From NCBI GenBank assembly GCA_947245585.1, contig CAMXPV010000009.1, positions 1 through 64,000 of the forward strand: a DNA stretch of 64,000 nucleotides. Reading direction: 5' to 3'. Origin of the DNA: an uncultured Lachnospiraceae bacterium (GTDB lineage Bacteria > Bacillota > Clostridia > Lachnospirales > Lachnospiraceae). Under the pieces are notes generated by a model. That model was not told the origin of the DNA. It searched no databases and saw only the letters and a program-made list of their open reading frames with translations. This document shows positions 44,013 through 51,696 of the stretch, one piece after another (positions within the stretch are counted from its first letter, which is position 1; every line of letters begins with the position of its first letter). Made by a program: the position numbers and the translations under genes.

Positions 44013-45356
44013 TTACTCTCCCCACTCTTTGACAGCGATCCCGTTTTCCAGTTCCTTATCACACTCCGTCACAATCTTCATATCGCCTGCAAGCAGTTCG
44101 TCCGCAATCGCCGCATAGTCCTCATTCTGGTCGAGAAGCCGCACCGTCAGGCTCCTTGCGCTGATCTGTGTGCCGAGAATCCCGTTCTTTTCCTCCAACA
44201 CATAAACGCATTTCCCACCCTCGTCTCGAAGCGCCTTCAACGGGACAACATACTCATAAATCTCCGAGGTGGAGGTGACCTCCATAACCCCTTCCGTCCT
44301 TCCCCTGCCGGTGCCCGCATCCAGATAAATCTTCACCGTATAAGCGCCGTTTTCCTGCACAATGGAATCCACCGTCTCCGACGCTTCCTCGGCGCTTCCC
44401 GGAAAACGCAGGCGCACACTGTCGCCCGTATGCAGCATGGATTTCTGTTCCTGGGTAATCACCGTGGAAAACAACAGGCCGCTCTCGTCATCGGCATAGC
44501 GGATCACCGCCTCCGATCCCATCCGCATACCGGACTGCACCATGACTTCCAAAACCGTGCCATCCTCTTTTGCCTTCACCCTGCCCTCCTCCTCGGAAAG
44601 TTCCGTCAAAAGTGCAATCCGCTCCTGCCTCTCCCGCACCTGGCTGATGCCGGAGACTCCCATGTCAAGGCCGCTCTCCGCCGCATTTTGGGCGCGTCTG
44701 GCATCCTCAATCTCTCTGTCCGCCTGCCGCAATATTTTTTCCTTCTCAAGCTGCACATTCTCGATCGTCCGCTTTTTCTCCGCAATCTCCCTGTCAAAGC
44801 GCTGCCGCTCGTCCGCCCATGCAATCCAGATTTCGTCCGAGGCGTCCTCCTCGGGAATCCGGAACATATGGGTGTCCAGATCCTCCATAAGCTCTTCCAG
44901 TTTCTTCGTCTCCTCCGCGATTTTTCTGTCCAGTTCCGTGACGCTCATATCGTAATCTTCCTGTGCCCGGGTAGTGTTTGTAGCCGCGTCCCGCCGTCTG
45001 GCCTGCTCCTGCTGCTGCCACGCCTGCTCCTGCGCAGTAAGCTCGGCAAGCTGCGCCTGCATGTCCTCCGTGTCCACCTCATAGAGCACGGTTCCTGCCT
45101 CCATCCGGTCTCCTGCCGTCACGCACACCTTTTTCACCAACAGACCCTCCAAGCCGGTAACCGCCTGCGAATTGACCGCCTCCACGGTTCCGTCCACCTC
45201 CAGTTTCTTTTAAATGGAAGATGCCACCGGATTGGCCCACCGAATCCGCGGCATCTGGCTGACATAGACCATCCGTGACACATAGGTCATAATCAGCATG
45301 GCCAACAGAAACAGGGCAAATCCCCTCCACAATTTTTTCTTCGATTCCATCTGCAT
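44013..45356 (-). pseudogene. HlyD/MacA-like membrane fusion adaptor, interrupted by in-frame TAA
   Basis: One continuous frame runs from the ATG at 45356 (or 45350) to 44013 except for a TAA at 45210-45212. Upstream of the TAA the product is a perfect signal anchor (ESKKKLWRGFALFLLAMLIM). Downstream it continues with VDGTVEAVNSQAVTGLEGLL, a lipoyl/biotinyl-like half, a long Gln/Glu/Arg coiled coil (about 90-210), the second half-motif (KEDGTVLEVMVQSGM) and the beta-barrel region. That is the adaptor plan of HlyD/MacA. The track entry starts at a GTG (45197) after the stop, which would lose the membrane anchor. A GGAGG just past the stop might allow reinitiation near 45185. Nonsense mutation, sequencing error or readthrough are all possible. 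Confidence 0.75.
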
Positions 45357-45377: not shown

Positions 45378-46229
45378 TCACTGTTTGACTCCAATATAGG
45401 CAATTCCCTCCTCCAGTGCATCCTGCCCAAGCGCAAAGACAAACAGCGCGGGGATCAACACCATGACCGCCACCGCAAAAGCGAAACCCGCCTGGCTGAT
45501 ATCAATCTGCGGCAGATAAAGAGACAGCGGCCACATGGCCTGCTCTTCCAAAAAAGCCATGGGCTGCTCTACCAGATTCCAATACTCTAAAAAACTCAGG
45601 ACGATCGCCGCCTGTATTCCCATCTTTCCCAGAGGCAGTCCAATCTGTAAAAAAATCTGCCACTCCCCCGCGCCGTCCAATCTGGCCGCCTCCAAAATCT
45701 CCCCGTCTATCTGGGTAAATCCCCGGTACATGATAAACACCGGAAACGTGGAAAAGATGGCCGGAAGAACCACCGCCGCAGGATGATTGTACATCTGCAG
45801 CTTCTGTAATACGATGTACTGCGGCAGGAGCATCACCTGAAAGGGCAGAAGCATCAGCACCACATAGAGGCCAAACAGAAAATCCCTGCCCCGGAAACGG
45901 AACGTGGCAAAAGCCCATGCCGAGGGCAGTCCCACCACCAACTGGCCCAAAAGAATCGCCGCCGTCATTCCCACCGTGTTCCAGAACAGCCGATAAAACG
46001 CCGGTGACTCGATTAACAGCCTGTAAAAATGGCCTATCGTCGGATAAAGGGGAATCAGATGCCAGACTGCAAAGCCGCTCCCCTCCCCCAGAATCGGCGC
46101 AAGAATCCGCCGCATCTCCGCGCTGTCCATCAGAGAACCGCCCGGAATCATCAAAAGAGGCGCACAGATCAGAGCCGCCGCTGCCGCACAGATGGCCGTT
46201 GCAAACCATGCCCTTTTCTTTTTCCGCAT
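45378..46229 (-). CDS. Carbohydrate-type ABC transporter permease (MalG-like)
   Basis: This 283-residue membrane protein has six helices and the cytoplasmic EAA loop that contacts the ATPase: EAARLDGAGEWQIFLQIGLP (part of the motif). The N terminus is a typical MalG anchor (AWFATAICAAAAALICAPLL). Its ATG directly follows the stop of the partner permease. No ATPase gene is present in the cluster; sugar importers often share one ATPase such as MsmX encoded elsewhere. Confidence 0.88.
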   Translation of the reverse strand: MRKKKRAWFATAICAAAAALICAPLLMIPGGSLMDSAEMRRILAPILGEGSGFAVWHLIPLYPTIGHFYRLLIESPAFYRLFWNTVGMTAAILLGQLVVGLPSAWAFATFRFRGRDFLFGLYVVLMLLPFQVMLLPQYIVLQKLQMYNHPAAVVLPAIFSTFPVFIMYRGFTQIDGEILEAARLDGAGEWQIFLQIGLPLGKMGIQAAIVLSFLEYWNLVEQPMAFLEEQAMWPLSLYLPQIDISQAGFAFAVAVMVLIPALFVFALGQDALEEGIAYIGVKQ

Positions 46230-47084
46230 CTACCCCGCCTCCAGTCTCTTCTGCAAAAGCAGGCACACACAAAGCAATACAAGCGACAGAATCACCGTCA
46301 AAGCCGCCATCCTGTCAAACTCCAGTTTCAGATACCAGTTTTGTAAAAGATGCTGCAAAAAATAAATATGTTCCTGCGGATAACTGCCCGCCACCATCCA
46401 GACTTCCCTGTAGCTTTTAAAAATCTGTAAGACGGACAGCATCCCTATGGTGAAAAAACTGCCGGAAAGCCCCGGCCGGATGATATAATGCCAACTCTGC
46501 CATCTGTTTGCGCCGTCCACCTGCGCCGCCTCCTCCACTTCTTTTGGCAGCGCCGAGAGTCCCGCAAGCCAGAGAATGACCATATACCCCGTGTTTTTCC
46601 ACAAAAAACTGCACACCACCACCGCCAGGGCCCACTCGGTATTGAGATAGTCGATCGCGGCAAAGGCAGGGAGCGCCGTAATCTGTTCCGATACTTTCGT
46701 CAACACGCCGTTGACCACGCCCTGTCTGTCAATCAGAATCTGCAGCGTCAAAACCATGACCGCCGCCGGCACCGCCATTGGCAGGAGCATTGCCGACACC
46801 AGTTTGCGCCGCAGCGCAAGGCCCCGCAATAACAGCGACAGCATCAGACTGATTCCCATCAAAAGCGGCACGCCCACCGCCATATACAGAAGCGTATTGC
46901 GCACGGCCAACAGGAAAGCGCTGTTTGTAAACACCGTGCGGTAATTGTCCGTCCCCACAAAGGCATTGTTGCCTGATTTTACAAACGAGCGCCGCACCAC
47001 CTCAAAAAAGGGAAACAGATAAAACAGCATGACACCCGTAAATCCCGGCAGCAAAAACAACAGCCGCCTACTCTTCCATCGCAA
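46230..47084 (-). CDS. Carbohydrate-type ABC transporter permease (MalF-like)
   Basis: A TTG at 47084 with GAGAGG 10 bases upstream gives 284 residues; the ORF track's 47102 is a TTG with no spacing to its site. It overlaps the binding-protein stop, implying coupled translation. Features: LFLLPGFTGVMLFYLFPFFEVV (first helix), then EEAAQVDGANRWQSWHYIIRP, the EAA loop. Six helices in all. It pairs with the MalG-like gene immediately downstream. Confidence 0.86.
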   Translation of the reverse strand: MRWKSRRLLFLLPGFTGVMLFYLFPFFEVVRRSFVKSGNNAFVGTDNYRTVFTNSAFLLAVRNTLLYMAVGVPLLMGISLMLSLLLRGLALRRKLVSAMLLPMAVPAAVMVLTLQILIDRQGVVNGVLTKVSEQITALPAFAAIDYLNTEWALAVVVCSFLWKNTGYMVILWLAGLSALPKEVEEAAQVDGANRWQSWHYIIRPGLSGSFFTIGMLSVLQIFKSYREVWMVAGSYPQEHIYFLQHLLQNWYLKLEFDRMAALTVILSLVLLCVCLLLQKRLEAG

Positions 47085-49443
47085 TCGCCATCTTCCTCTC
47101 AACCTCTCCCGCCCCTTCCTCCGGTGTCAATTCTCCGTTAAGCACCCGGATGCCGGTCTCCATCGCACATTCCTCCAACATTGTTCCTGGGCGGTAGCAG
47201 CAGTCCGCGTCCTCCATCATCTGATAGAGCCACTGCTTTTCTTCCTCTGTGGGCCAAAAATCCGGATAATTGATTCCGGTAGGGTCTTTGAATCCCATAA
47301 CCTGACCGAACTCTATGTTGTCGATATCCAAAATGTCGCCAAGGGAGTCTTTCCGTATCGTGAGCCCGCTCTGGTTCCGCGGTTTGTCAAGCCACCACTT
47401 CCGCATCATCTCATCGGAGAGAAGCAGCTTGAAAAATTCCTCCGCAAGCTCCGTCTCTTTTCCCTGCTCACACAGGCCCACGATCGTCTTTGCCCAGTAG
47501 ACATTGTCCGCCTGCCCTGCATATGTCCCATAAGTCACCACATCATCCAACTCTTTTGGCTGCCAGTCCGCCGCCATATTTGCCTTCTCCACATGAATGC
47601 CCGTCATGCCGACCTGCGGGGTCATCAGGAAACCGAGCTGCAGCCATGTCTCACCGAAATTCTGTTGGGCGTTGTACTGATAACAAAAGCTGATATCCGC
47701 CATATTCCTGTCCGTTGGCTCATAATATTCCATATTGTTTTTCTGCCACGCTTCCCGCCCCGCATCGTCAAATCCGGCGCAGTCTATCTCCCACATTCTG
47801 CTCACCGCCCGATAATACGCCGTCAACTTCTCCACATCCAGACTGCCGTCCTCCCCTGTCCATGCGGGCAGGCAGACCGGCATCGTCTGCTGCAGGACAT
47901 CCTTGGGATAGAGTGTGTAGAGAATCGGCCCCTCAGGGTGTTTCTGCCTGGCAAGCTCCATGCCCGCCACAATGGCATCAAGACTCTCCTCCCCATCCAG
48001 ATACATCTCCTCGCCAAGCCAGAGGGGAAGGTAAACCATCATCGGCACAGAGTATACTTTCTCCTTGTCTGTCATGCGCATCCCTTCCACGATATTCCGG
48101 TACAGAATGCCGTCGTCCAGATAGGGCTGTAAGATACCGTCCAATTCTTTCAGTACTCCCTTGTCGGCATACTGTTCGATGTCCATATTGTCCATGACGA
48201 TCACATCCGGCACATCCCCTGCAAGCAGGCGCGTGTTCAGGTTTTTCAGCGCATCCTCTTTACTGACCGCATTGTCGCCATCCATACCCGTCTCATACCG
48301 CACAAGCACATCCGGGTGCTCCTTCTGGAAAAGCTGCCCTGCATAACGAATCCATCCGATTTCCTCCAGACTGTACACCGTCAGCTCCCTGGAAGGTCTG
48401 GCGGGCAGCGTCTCATCGTAGTACATCTCCACCATAGTATTGCCGCTGAACATAACGCGGAACTCTCCGTTATCAAGCGCCTGCAGGGCAATGGGCTCTC
48501 TCTGGGTATCTCCGAGCGCCGTCATCTGCCCGTCCGCGATCTGCTCGATCACCGAACCGCCCCATATGTAGCGGTATACGCCTGTGCGGCATGCCATATA
48601 CAAAATCTGCGCATTCCCGGTATCGTCTGCTGAATCCGTATCCGATGTGTCGGCTGCCTCACCGTCCATAACTTTTCCCTGAATGTCCTTGTCCGACACC
48701 GCCATCACAAGACCGCCGGTACTGTGATTTTTGATAAACTCATCCAACGCACTGCTGCCGTCTGTCAATTTCCCCGCTGCCATGTCATAGAAATAGGCCT
48801 TCTCCCTGTCCGCCGCAAGCATTACACCGTCTGCGAAGACAATGGATTTCACCTGGCCGGACGTGGCAAAAAGGCTGTCGGTCTCACCGCTCTCCACATT
48901 GATCCGGTACACATGATTTTCGGACGCTGCATACAGGTCTCCTTCCGGTGAAAAAGCAAAAATGTTCAGATTCGTGCCTTTCTGATACCCCTCTCCATGG
49001 GGTTCCAGCGCATAATTTTTTCCGGCCTCATCCACATAACAGTATAAATAACAGGTGTCACCGGAAATCCATAAAGCCTCCATTTCCTTATCCACCCAGA
49101 ATTTAGGCGTATAAGAAAAAACAGCCGCCCCGCTGTCCGAACCCCCCACCTCATACTTGACGCGAATATTGGCGTTATTTTCCCAACTCCAGTTCTTTTC
49201 CCGACTTTCGCCCTGCGCGTCCACATAGGTCAGATTGGCATCCGCACCATACAGATAGTACCCGCCGTCAGGACACGAATGCATATAACTGAAAGTGCCT
49301 GGCGGCAGCTTCACCTCCCTGTCCGCATAACGTCCCATAGGGATTTCTTCCTCTTTACTGCCGCATCCGAAAAGGGCTGCGCACATAACAGCTGTTATAG
49401 CCGCCACGCACAACAACATTTTTCTTTTACGTCCCCGCATCAT
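47068..49443 (-). CDS. Very large lipoprotein: propeller-like N half fused to solute-binding domain
   Basis: This 791-residue lipoprotein starts with a lipobox (AALFGC, Cys about 27). Residues 30-340 are beta-rich with repeated short strands (CPDGGYYLYGADANLTYVD, GDLYAASENHVYRINVESG, ILYMACRTGVYRY) like a PQQ/WD-type propeller. Residues about 355-790 are a family-1 type solute-binding protein (LLAGDVPDVIVMDNMDIEQYADKGVLKELDGIL, in parts), typical for sugar or oligosaccharide import. Ordinary binding proteins have about 430 residues, so the fusion is unusual. First gene of the minus operon; RBS AAGGAGG. It probably anchors outside and may sense as well as deliver ligand. Confidence 0.85.
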   Translation of the reverse strand: MMRGRKRKMLLCVAAITAVMCAALFGCGSKEEEIPMGRYADREVKLPPGTFSYMHSCPDGGYYLYGADANLTYVDAQGESREKNWSWENNANIRVKYEVGGSDSGAAVFSYTPKFWVDKEMEALWISGDTCYLYCYVDEAGKNYALEPHGEGYQKGTNLNIFAFSPEGDLYAASENHVYRINVESGETDSLFATSGQVKSIVFADGVMLAADREKAYFYDMAAGKLTDGSSALDEFIKNHSTGGLVMAVSDKDIQGKVMDGEAADTSDTDSADDTGNAQILYMACRTGVYRYIWGGSVIEQIADGQMTALGDTQREPIALQALDNGEFRVMFSGNTMVEMYYDETLPARPSRELTVYSLEEIGWIRYAGQLFQKEHPDVLVRYETGMDGDNAVSKEDALKNLNTRLLAGDVPDVIVMDNMDIEQYADKGVLKELDGILQPYLDDGILYRNIVEGMRMTDKEKVYSVPMMVYLPLWLGEEMYLDGEESLDAIVAGMELARQKHPEGPILYTLYPKDVLQQTMPVCLPAWTGEDGSLDVEKLTAYYRAVSRMWEIDCAGFDDAGREAWQKNNMEYYEPTDRNMADISFCYQYNAQQNFGETWLQLGFLMTPQVGMTGIHVEKANMAADWQPKELDDVVTYGTYAGQADNVYWAKTIVGLCEQGKETELAEEFFKLLLSDEMMRKWWLDKPRNQSGLTIRKDSLGDILDIDNIEFGQVMGFKDPTGINYPDFWPTEEEKQWLYQMMEDADCCYRPGTMLEECAMETGIRVLNGELTPEEGAGEVERKMAIAMEE

Positions 49444-49487: not shown

Positions 49488-49543
49488 ATTATAAACAATA
49501 ATCTTTCTAAATATCTTCTAAGAAGTTTCTAAGAAATCTCTAA
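49488..49543. promoter_or_regulatory. Four 11-bp phased direct repeats abutting the -10 of the transport operon
   Basis: TTCTAA (CTCTAA in the last copy) starts at 49505, 49516, 49527 and 49538, a strict 11-base period. TATAAT of the leftward operon is at 49488-49493 (minus) and has no -35. The repeats take its place, which is the layout of OmpR/PhoB-type activator sites. The adjacent OmpR-family regulator is the obvious candidate. Confidence 0.7.
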
Positions 49544-49670
49544 TTTGAGTATTTTTCAACAGACTAAAATATTTGGGATTTATTTGAAGAAAAAATGTGG
49601 TAAAATGTTCACGAAAGCACAAAATCGCTTTGCGGATTCACAGCACAGATGGGGAATCGAGGAAACTATC

Positions 49671-50348
49671 ATGAAAATTTTGATCATCGAAGATGACAAA
49701 GACTTATGCCACGCCGTATCCTGGCAGTTACAGCAGGAGGGAAACCGGGTGGACTGCTGCCATGACGGCAGCGAAGCCCTGTTGTATATTCGTCAGGGCA
49801 TTTATGACCTGATCCTGTTGGACTGTATGCTGCCCGGCGAAGACGGTCTTCACATTCTGCGCGACATACGCGCCGAGGGAAATCTGACCCCAGTTATCAT
49901 CCTCTCCGCTCTCGGCGAAGTGGACGACCGGGTAACCGGACTCAACGCGGGCGCAGACGACTATCTGGTGAAGCCTTTTGCCTACTCGGAGCTCGCCGCC
50001 AGAATCACGTCCCTGTTTCGCCGCAAAAACGCCTTTGAAACCCCTGCCCTCTCCTACGGCGATCTGTTCCTAGACCGCGCGGAAAACAGCCTGATATGCG
50101 GAAATAAAAAATGCGCTCTCTCCCAGACGGAGAGCGAACTGATGCGCCTGCTTCTGCAATCCGGCAGCAAAATCACCGACCGCACCGTGCTGCTGCACAA
50201 AGTATGGGGACTGGACACTTCCGTGGAAAGCAGCAATCTGGATAACTATATCTATTTCCTGCGCAAACGCCTGAAAACACTAGACAGCCGCGTCCTCATC
50301 GTAAACCGGCGCGGTCTCGGCTACCATCTGGAATACAACGAAGAATAA
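49671..50348 (+). CDS. OmpR/PhoB-family response regulator
   Basis: The ATG at 49671 (MKILIIEDDKDLCHAVSW) with GAGGAAAC upstream is right; the tracked 49545 adds 42 residues of spacer. The 225-residue product has a receiver domain (EDDKD acidic pocket, phospho-Asp in DLILLDCMLPGEDG, KPFAYSELAARI) and a winged-helix C-terminal domain (LLQSGSKITDRTVLLHKVWG, SSNLDNYIYFLRKRL, VNRRGLGYHLE). Directly before its histidine kinase; extended -10 TGGTAAAAT lies near 49597. Confidence 0.94.
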   Translation: MKILIIEDDKDLCHAVSWQLQQEGNRVDCCHDGSEALLYIRQGIYDLILLDCMLPGEDGLHILRDIRAEGNLTPVIILSALGEVDDRVTGLNAGADDYLVKPFAYSELAARITSLFRRKNAFETPALSYGDLFLDRAENSLICGNKKCALSQTESELMRLLLQSGSKITDRTVLLHKVWGLDTSVESSNLDNYIYFLRKRLKTLDSRVLIVNRRGLGYHLEYNEE

Positions 50349-50358
50349 AGGAGTGCCT

Positions 50359-51696
50359 ATGTATCAGGATGTACGGCTTCGGCTGACCAAACTTTTCACT
50401 GCTGTCCTCTCAATTCTGCTCACCATACTGCTCGGCGTCTGCTTTTATTTTTCCGTCAGACAGCAGTTTTCCCTGCAGGTATCCTCTTTTACAAGCCAGT
50501 CCTACACCGTGTTTGAATCTATCAGCGAGCAGACGGTTCTCACGTCCCAATGGCTGACAGCCCACGAAGAAAACGCGGGAATGCGCATTTATCTGTGGGA
50601 TAACGGCGTGGAGCTGTTCCACAACCAGGACCACGCCAACCAAATCCACCCTGAATATATCCACTATCTCTCCGAACCGGAAGACGGGCGCACCTTACAT
50701 CCGCAAAAAGGGGCTGTTGACGTATCGGTTGGCAGACACGGCCTTTTCCCCGAAGTGCTGTGTTACCAGAAGCAGTTTGTCAAAAATAACAGTCTGTTGC
50801 AAGTCTGCTTTTTACAATCGCTGAAACCGCTCTATGCCCGCATCAGAAGCAGTCTGTTTCTCTATCTCGCCCTGCTTTTTTCCTCTCTGTGCCTCCTTGC
50901 GCTCTTTTGTTGGTATTTCACAGGGCGGCTTCTAAAGCCTCTGCTTGCTTCCCATGAGAGTCAGAACCGTTTCATAGCAAGCGTCTCTCACGAACTGCGC
51001 ACACCGCTTGCCGTCATCCTCTCCAACGCTTCCGCCTGTGAAAAAGCGCCACCGGCAGAGCAAAAGACCTTTTTTCAAGTGATTGCAAGGGAAGGCGCGC
51101 AGATGTCCGTCATGTTGGAACAGCTTCTCACCCTCTCCCGCGCAGACAGCCACGGACTGACTCTCCAGATCGAAGAAACCGATTTACAGACACTTCTGCT
51201 TGAGACATTTGAAAACTTCCAACCGCTTGCCGCCGACAGCGGTCACCTCCTGTCTATCCGTCTGCCCGAAGCCGAACTGCCGCTCTGCTCCTGTGACGCG
51301 GCACGAGTACAACAGGTATGTCATATTCTTCTCCATAACGCTATGTCCTACACGCCCGCCGGAAGCACCGTGCTTCTCTTCATTGCCGAGGGGACCTATG
51401 AGAAAGAAATCACCATCGGCGTGCAGGATAACGGGCCCGGCATTCCCGACGAAGAAAAGGACAAAATCTTTAACCGCTTCTACCGCGTGAAATCCGATTC
51501 CTCCACGGCAAAGAACGAAAAAGGCCACCACGGCCTGGGACTGGCGGTAGCCAGGGAAATTGCTTCCGCCCACAAAGGCACGCTTACCGTCTCCGACGCG
51601 GAAGACGGCGGGACTGTCTTTTTATTGACACTGCCTGCCCTGCCATATTCTTTTCCGCTTAAGGCTTGCACCCCACTCCCTAAAGTGTTAGGATGA
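50359..51696 (+). CDS. Membrane histidine kinase partner of the response regulator
   Basis: A 445-residue sensor kinase. Start ATG at 50359 with AAGGAG. Two helices (about 10-32 and 155-178) flank an outward sensor of about 120 residues with no known domain. Then the H-box (FIASVSHELRTPLAVIL), N-box (ILLHNAMSYTPAGS, a variant with Met for the usual more polar residue), DNGPGIPDEEKDKIFNRFYRV and GLGLAVAREIASAH. Signals from outside to the OmpR-type regulator encoded 10 bases upstream, which probably controls the divergent transport operon. Confidence 0.93.
   Translation: MYQDVRLRLTKLFTAVLSILLTILLGVCFYFSVRQQFSLQVSSFTSQSYTVFESISEQTVLTSQWLTAHEENAGMRIYLWDNGVELFHNQDHANQIHPEYIHYLSEPEDGRTLHPQKGAVDVSVGRHGLFPEVLCYQKQFVKNNSLLQVCFLQSLKPLYARIRSSLFLYLALLFSSLCLLALFCWYFTGRLLKPLLASHESQNRFIASVSHELRTPLAVILSNASACEKAPPAEQKTFFQVIAREGAQMSVMLEQLLTLSRADSHGLTLQIEETDLQTLLLETFENFQPLAADSGHLLSIRLPEAELPLCSCDAARVQQVCHILLHNAMSYTPAGSTVLLFIAEGTYEKEITIGVQDNGPGIPDEEKDKIFNRFYRVKSDSSTAKNEKGHHGLGLAVAREIASAHKGTLTVSDAEDGGTVFLLTLPALPYSFPLKACTPLPKVLG

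Follow-up and report, generated by a model that had tools for sequence, protein, structure and literature searches.

A conserved array of 11-bp-period direct repeats as the predicted operator of a two-component regulator and a transport operon in gut Lachnospiraceae

Four hexamers repeated with a period of 11 bp lie between a transport operon and a divergent two-component regulator gene in a 64-kb stretch of DNA (64,000 nucleotides; the window) from an uncultured Lachnospiraceae bacterium and, judged from comparison of orthologous sequences, this array almost certainly serves as the binding site of the adjacent regulator. We put at about 0.88 the probability that this OmpR-family regulator binds the array, stands in for the -35 contact and activates transcription of the operon as well as of its own gene. 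Genomes of gut Lachnospiraceae encode dozens of two-component regulators whose sites are unknown, and for one such system, apparently uncharacterised, the analysis offers a concrete predicted operator and a target operon.

The repeat array and the operon promoter

The array sits in a 227-bp gap between two divergent genes, the first gene of the operon (ATG at 49443, minus strand) and the regulator gene (ATG at 49671, plus strand). As read directly from the plus strand, three copies of TTCTAA are followed by CTCTAA, with start-to-start distances of exactly 11 bp; on the minus strand the hexamer is TTAGAA, and unit 1 is followed, after 11 bp, by TATAAT (Table 1). A three-unit pattern with up to three mismatches was found at a single place in the 64-kb window, the array itself, with 0.01 expected from dinucleotide shuffles. 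Similarly, comparing the 200-bp stretch before the regulator with itself, with no preset motif, gave 11 matching 7-mers at lag 11, as opposed to 0–3 at the other lags from 7 to 25, which leaves lag 11 as the sole strong period in this region. The hexamer located at the 17-bp spacing from the operon -10 is AGATAT, matching TTGACA at 0 of 6 positions, and a sigma-70 scan of the operon (minus) strand returned no promoter. These results confirm two statements of the initial annotation, namely that the TTCTAA motifs recur at an exact 11-base spacing and that they end 11 bases from a -10 element that has no -35. The array has the form of an OmpR/PhoB-type operator: a direct repeat of ~6 bp with a period of ~11 bp, overlapping the -35 position at a fixed distance from the -10 (N11 in all ortholog promoters).

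Genes around the array

The regulator combines a receiver domain with a C-terminal winged helix (Trans_reg_C), which bears out its earlier assignment to the OmpR/PhoB family. Its best PDB sequence match is DrrD (1kgs), and BasR/PmrA (8jo2, 4s04) is the second-best. In all orthologs with coverage of the region, a histidine kinase gene adjoins the regulator gene. Among the minus-strand genes there is also one for a HlyD-like protein, with an in-frame TAG near its N-terminus (45210–45212, minus strand; VASSI*KKLEVDGTVEA) where the ortholog from genome G033 reads through; this gene may be truncated, or it may restart at 45197. Tandem duplicates of the binding-protein gene occur in G482, G001, G013, G480 and G469 (loci L209, L215, L206, L207 and L203), and G457 appears to retain only the second-type copy.

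Table 1. Genes and predicted promoter elements at the locus (window coordinates)
Feature	Position	Strand	Remarks
Two ABC permeases of the operon, MalF/G-type	45378..47102	-	BPD_transp_1; order conserved in most orthologs
Substrate-binding lipoprotein, first gene of the target operon	47068..49443	-	SBP_bac_1, in the C-terminal part
-10 element of the transport operon, TATAAT	49488..49493	-	Lacks a -35 and a TG extension; spacing of 11 bp to unit 1 conserved in orthologs
Unit 1, TTAGAA (minus-strand reading), closest to the -10	49505..49510	-	Sequence and orthologs
Unit 2, TTAGAA	49516..49521	-	Sequence and orthologs
Unit 3, TTAGAA	49527..49532	-	Sequence and orthologs; decayed in G013
Unit 4, TTAGAG	49538..49543	-	Sequence and orthologs; decayed in G013
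Distal unit of the regulator promoter, TTGGGA (orthologs mostly TTAGGA or TTAGAA)	49573..49578	+	Weak in the window's genome (P = 0.095), strong in orthologs
Proximal unit, TTGAAG (orthologs TTAAAG, TTAGAG or TTCGAG), 11 bp from the -10	49584..49589	+	
Extended -10 of the regulator gene, TGG TAAAAT	49598..49606	+	TGN conserved in all regulator promoters examined
OmpR-family response regulator, 225 aa	49671..50348	+	Pfam Response_reg PF00072 (1.9e-28), Trans_reg_C PF00486 (1.2e-13)
Sensor histidine kinase	50353..51696	+	HisKA, HATPase_c
MntR/DtxR-like regulator, 132 aa	51739-52137		Downstream of the kinase

Conservation and rearranged relatives

The comparison set consisted of 77 genomes of the genus, 14 of which encode an ortholog of the binding protein. 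Over 11 orthologous intergenic regions, the columns of the array are 96% conserved (hexamers 97%, spacers 93%) and its flanks 61% (operon side) and 68% (the stretch beyond the array), although these sites are not fully independent because the ortholog genomes are related. The hexamer-N5-hexamer-N11-(-10) geometry is preserved in 14 of 14 ortholog genomes. Conservation of the 11-base period in orthologous promoters had been proposed earlier as a check, and both this period and the 11-bp gap to the -10 were found in every ortholog. The region is AT-rich and its period is close to the helical repeat, as might be expected of an UP-element, of curved DNA or of a chance low-complexity sequence. However, drift in the AT-rich flanks contrasts with conservation of specific C and G bases in the hexamers, distant copies carry the G+C-containing TTCGAG in the same position, and shuffles of the window give 0.01. 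Such base-specific conservation refutes a structural or low-complexity origin of the repeats, to which we assign only a negligible probability. On the protein side, alignment places the helix NLDNYIYFLRKRLK at the recognition helix, and all 12 regulators recovered share it without change.

Three genomes carry rearranged versions of the locus. In G469, and only there, an ftsH-like gene (L203:6001-7818) separates the regulator from the operon, and both promoters, ~2 kb apart, carry TTAGAA-N5-TTCGAG-N11-TATNNT. In G010, it is a permease gene and not the binding-protein gene that diverges from the regulator, and the two promoters, TTAGAT-N5-TTCGAG-N11-TATACT and TTAGCA-N5-TTAGAG-N11-TATACT, preserve the geometry. 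G001 has a second copy of the first gene of the operon elsewhere, with the same site. Since the sites follow both the operon and the regulator where these are separated (G469), the motif appears to be tied to this regulator; taken together with the helix shared by 12 regulators, the three rearrangements link it to this regulator and its operon rather than to the location alone. Ortholog conservation and the separation in G469 thus support the earlier reading of the array as the probable target of the neighbouring OmpR-family regulator.

Specificity of the motif

The pattern TTAGAA-N5-TTMGAR-N11-TANNNT was fixed from the ortholog promoters and then searched for in each of the 77 genus genomes. 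It gave 16 matches, 15 of them in promoters of this transporter operon or its regulator, with a single stray match in G035. By genome, the pattern is co-inherited with the transporter, being present in 13 of the 14 genomes with an ortholog versus 1 of the 63 without (Fisher p = 1e-12), a figure that measures specificity and is not an independent test of discovery, since the pattern was derived from part of the same data. The fourteenth ortholog genome, G010, falls outside the strict pattern, as TTAGAT replaces TTAGAA.

Within the window's genome, TTCTAA-N5-TTCTAA occurs in two further places, and the full geometry with a -10 was found, at zero mismatches, only at the array. A search of the same genome for a second regulon site found none, the matches with two mismatches being at the level of the reversed-pattern control. 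The motif is confined to one intergenic region of this genome, and the regulator seems to serve this locus alone. In family-wide scans of 397 genomes with the triple repeat and the promoter geometry, matches were no more numerous than those of the reversed-pattern control, whose counts were added up by eye, and the motif is therefore not a general element of the family. When contigs were scanned with the triple repeat, the matches listed were mostly unrelated, and the three among them that were examined (L086, L107 and L129) proved to be known orthologs.

These distributions also bear on the idea that some other DNA-binding protein, such as a global regulator or the MntR-like protein, binds the array and that the two-component neighbourhood is coincidental. 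The MntR-like gene does lie directly downstream in the window, yet it was found in only 1 of the 13 other ortholog regions searched (G033). Moreover, the motif occurs nowhere else in the genome and shows no enrichment in the family, and it is found at the regulator's own promoter even when this is unlinked from the operon. We consider binding by a different protein very unlikely.

The promoter of the regulator gene

The same motif is present at the regulator's own promoter, as would be expected of an autoregulated two-component system; this second site was absent from the initial annotation and was detected in the present follow-up. The operon geometry recurs unchanged on the other strand, as TTAGRA-N5-TTAAAG-N11-TAAAMT in most orthologs. 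In most of them the two-unit site has a shuffle P of 0.0004–0.011 each, with values of 0.001–0.003 in short-spacer species, 0.006–0.011 in most long-spacer species and 0.042 in G033. It is weak in the window's own genome, where TTGGGA/TTGAAG matches at 7 of 12 positions (P = 0.095). A pattern of two units plus TGN had 13 matches in the 77 genomes, 12 of them at this system, and its reversed control had 1. The distance from the array to the regulator promoter varies by ~27 bp among orthologs; this rules out a phase-locked action of the array on that promoter, so that any joint action on the two promoters would not be phase-locked.

Number of units and the extended -10

The distant forms (G469, G010 and the second copy in G001) have two units, while the main clade has four. 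TGN is absent from all ten four-unit operon promoters and present in all four two-unit ones; the regulator promoters likewise combine two units with TGN. G013 belongs to the four-unit group and is the partner of the four-unit G001 in the operon-protein tree, yet its promoter keeps only units 1 and 2, the other two having been lost, and carries TGT ahead of the -10. Half-site number and the extended -10 might, tentatively, trade off in evolution, the pattern being a post-hoc one that involves few independent changes. If this trade-off were true, the variants of this locus would form a natural series in which regulator occupancy is linked to basal promoter strength. Two-unit and four-unit promoters for probing the effect of half-site number and the extended -10 on output are already available among the orthologs.

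Proposed mode of action

In the OmpR/PhoB family, a phosphorylated dimer bound to two head-to-tail hexamers over the -35 position recruits RNA polymerase. By analogy, the histidine kinase would phosphorylate the regulator and cause it to dimerise, and the dimer would bind the hexamers head-to-tail, with TTAGAA reading towards the operon and one monomer per helical turn. A dimer on units 1 and 2 would occupy the place of the -35, 11 bp from TATAAT, and recruit RNA polymerase (class II activation), while units 3 and 4 may accept a second dimer, leading to stronger binding. The weaker two-unit site before the extended -10 of the regulator gene would allow basal expression and positive autoregulation.

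Some OmpR-family proteins repress from sites overlapping the -35 region, which the array also overlaps, and the regulator could conceivably bind there only to block polymerase until a signal releases it. However, the operon promoter lacks a -35, and in the ten four-unit species it lacks a TG extension as well; it would therefore be expected to stay silent unless an activator is bound. The invariant spacing of 11 bp before the -10 in all orthologs also resembles that of the activated CiaR promoters (gap 10; PMC3091779) and likewise speaks against repression. Repression thus seems unlikely, and activation remains our preferred reading.

Relation to known systems

The arrangement is of a well-known kind; the motif, the pairing of regulator and operon and the autoregulatory site appear to be undescribed. 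In the pho box of Escherichia coli PhoB, direct repeats with an 11-bp period replace the -35 about one turn upstream of the -10; the half-site is CTGTCAT, and strong promoters have multiple half-sites. The array shares with it the 11-bp-period repeats in the -35 place and the multiple half-sites but differs in half-site sequence, regulon and signal.

Promoters of the streptococcal CiaR regulon carry TTTAAG-N5-TTTAAG, followed after 10 bp by TATAAT, and are directly activated (PMC3091779). The shared features are an OmpR-family regulator and a hexamer-N5-hexamer direct repeat with an 11-bp period close before the -10. In contrast, the hexamer here is TTAGAA/TTMGAR, the gap is 11 bp instead of 10, and the operon has four units; the recognition helix is NLDNYIYFLRKRLK versus VVEVYVSKVRKKL in CiaR, and all orthologs have the former in place of the CiaR-type VVEVYVSK[VI]RKKL. 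The PmrA/BasR box of enterobacteria, CTTAAG-N5-XTTAAT (PMC3973317), is related through its N5-spaced hexamers with a TTA core and through head-to-tail binding (predicted here), as well as through the PDB match to BasR noted above. Yet the repeat here is TTAGAA-N5-TTAGAA, which differs in the fourth and following bases (TTAGA, as opposed to TTAAG or TTAAT), and the bacteria, the kinase and the target differ as well. The literature searched gave no matching system for direct repeats of TTAGAA or TTCTAA in connection with response regulators, and the earlier suggestion that the system is undescribed appears to hold.

Other OmpR-family paralogs recovered from the genome showed no general excess of upstream 11-bp repeats, with the exception of two regulators that have words of the TTTAGA type, L229 and L246. 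The first of these, L229 (G000:C43:28888; 47% identity), has TTTAGAG-N4-TTTAAAG located 10 bp upstream of TACACT, which suggests a wider subfamily with related half-sites, and L246 has an 11-bp repeat of the TTTAGAATTAATTAAGAATT type ~70 bp upstream.
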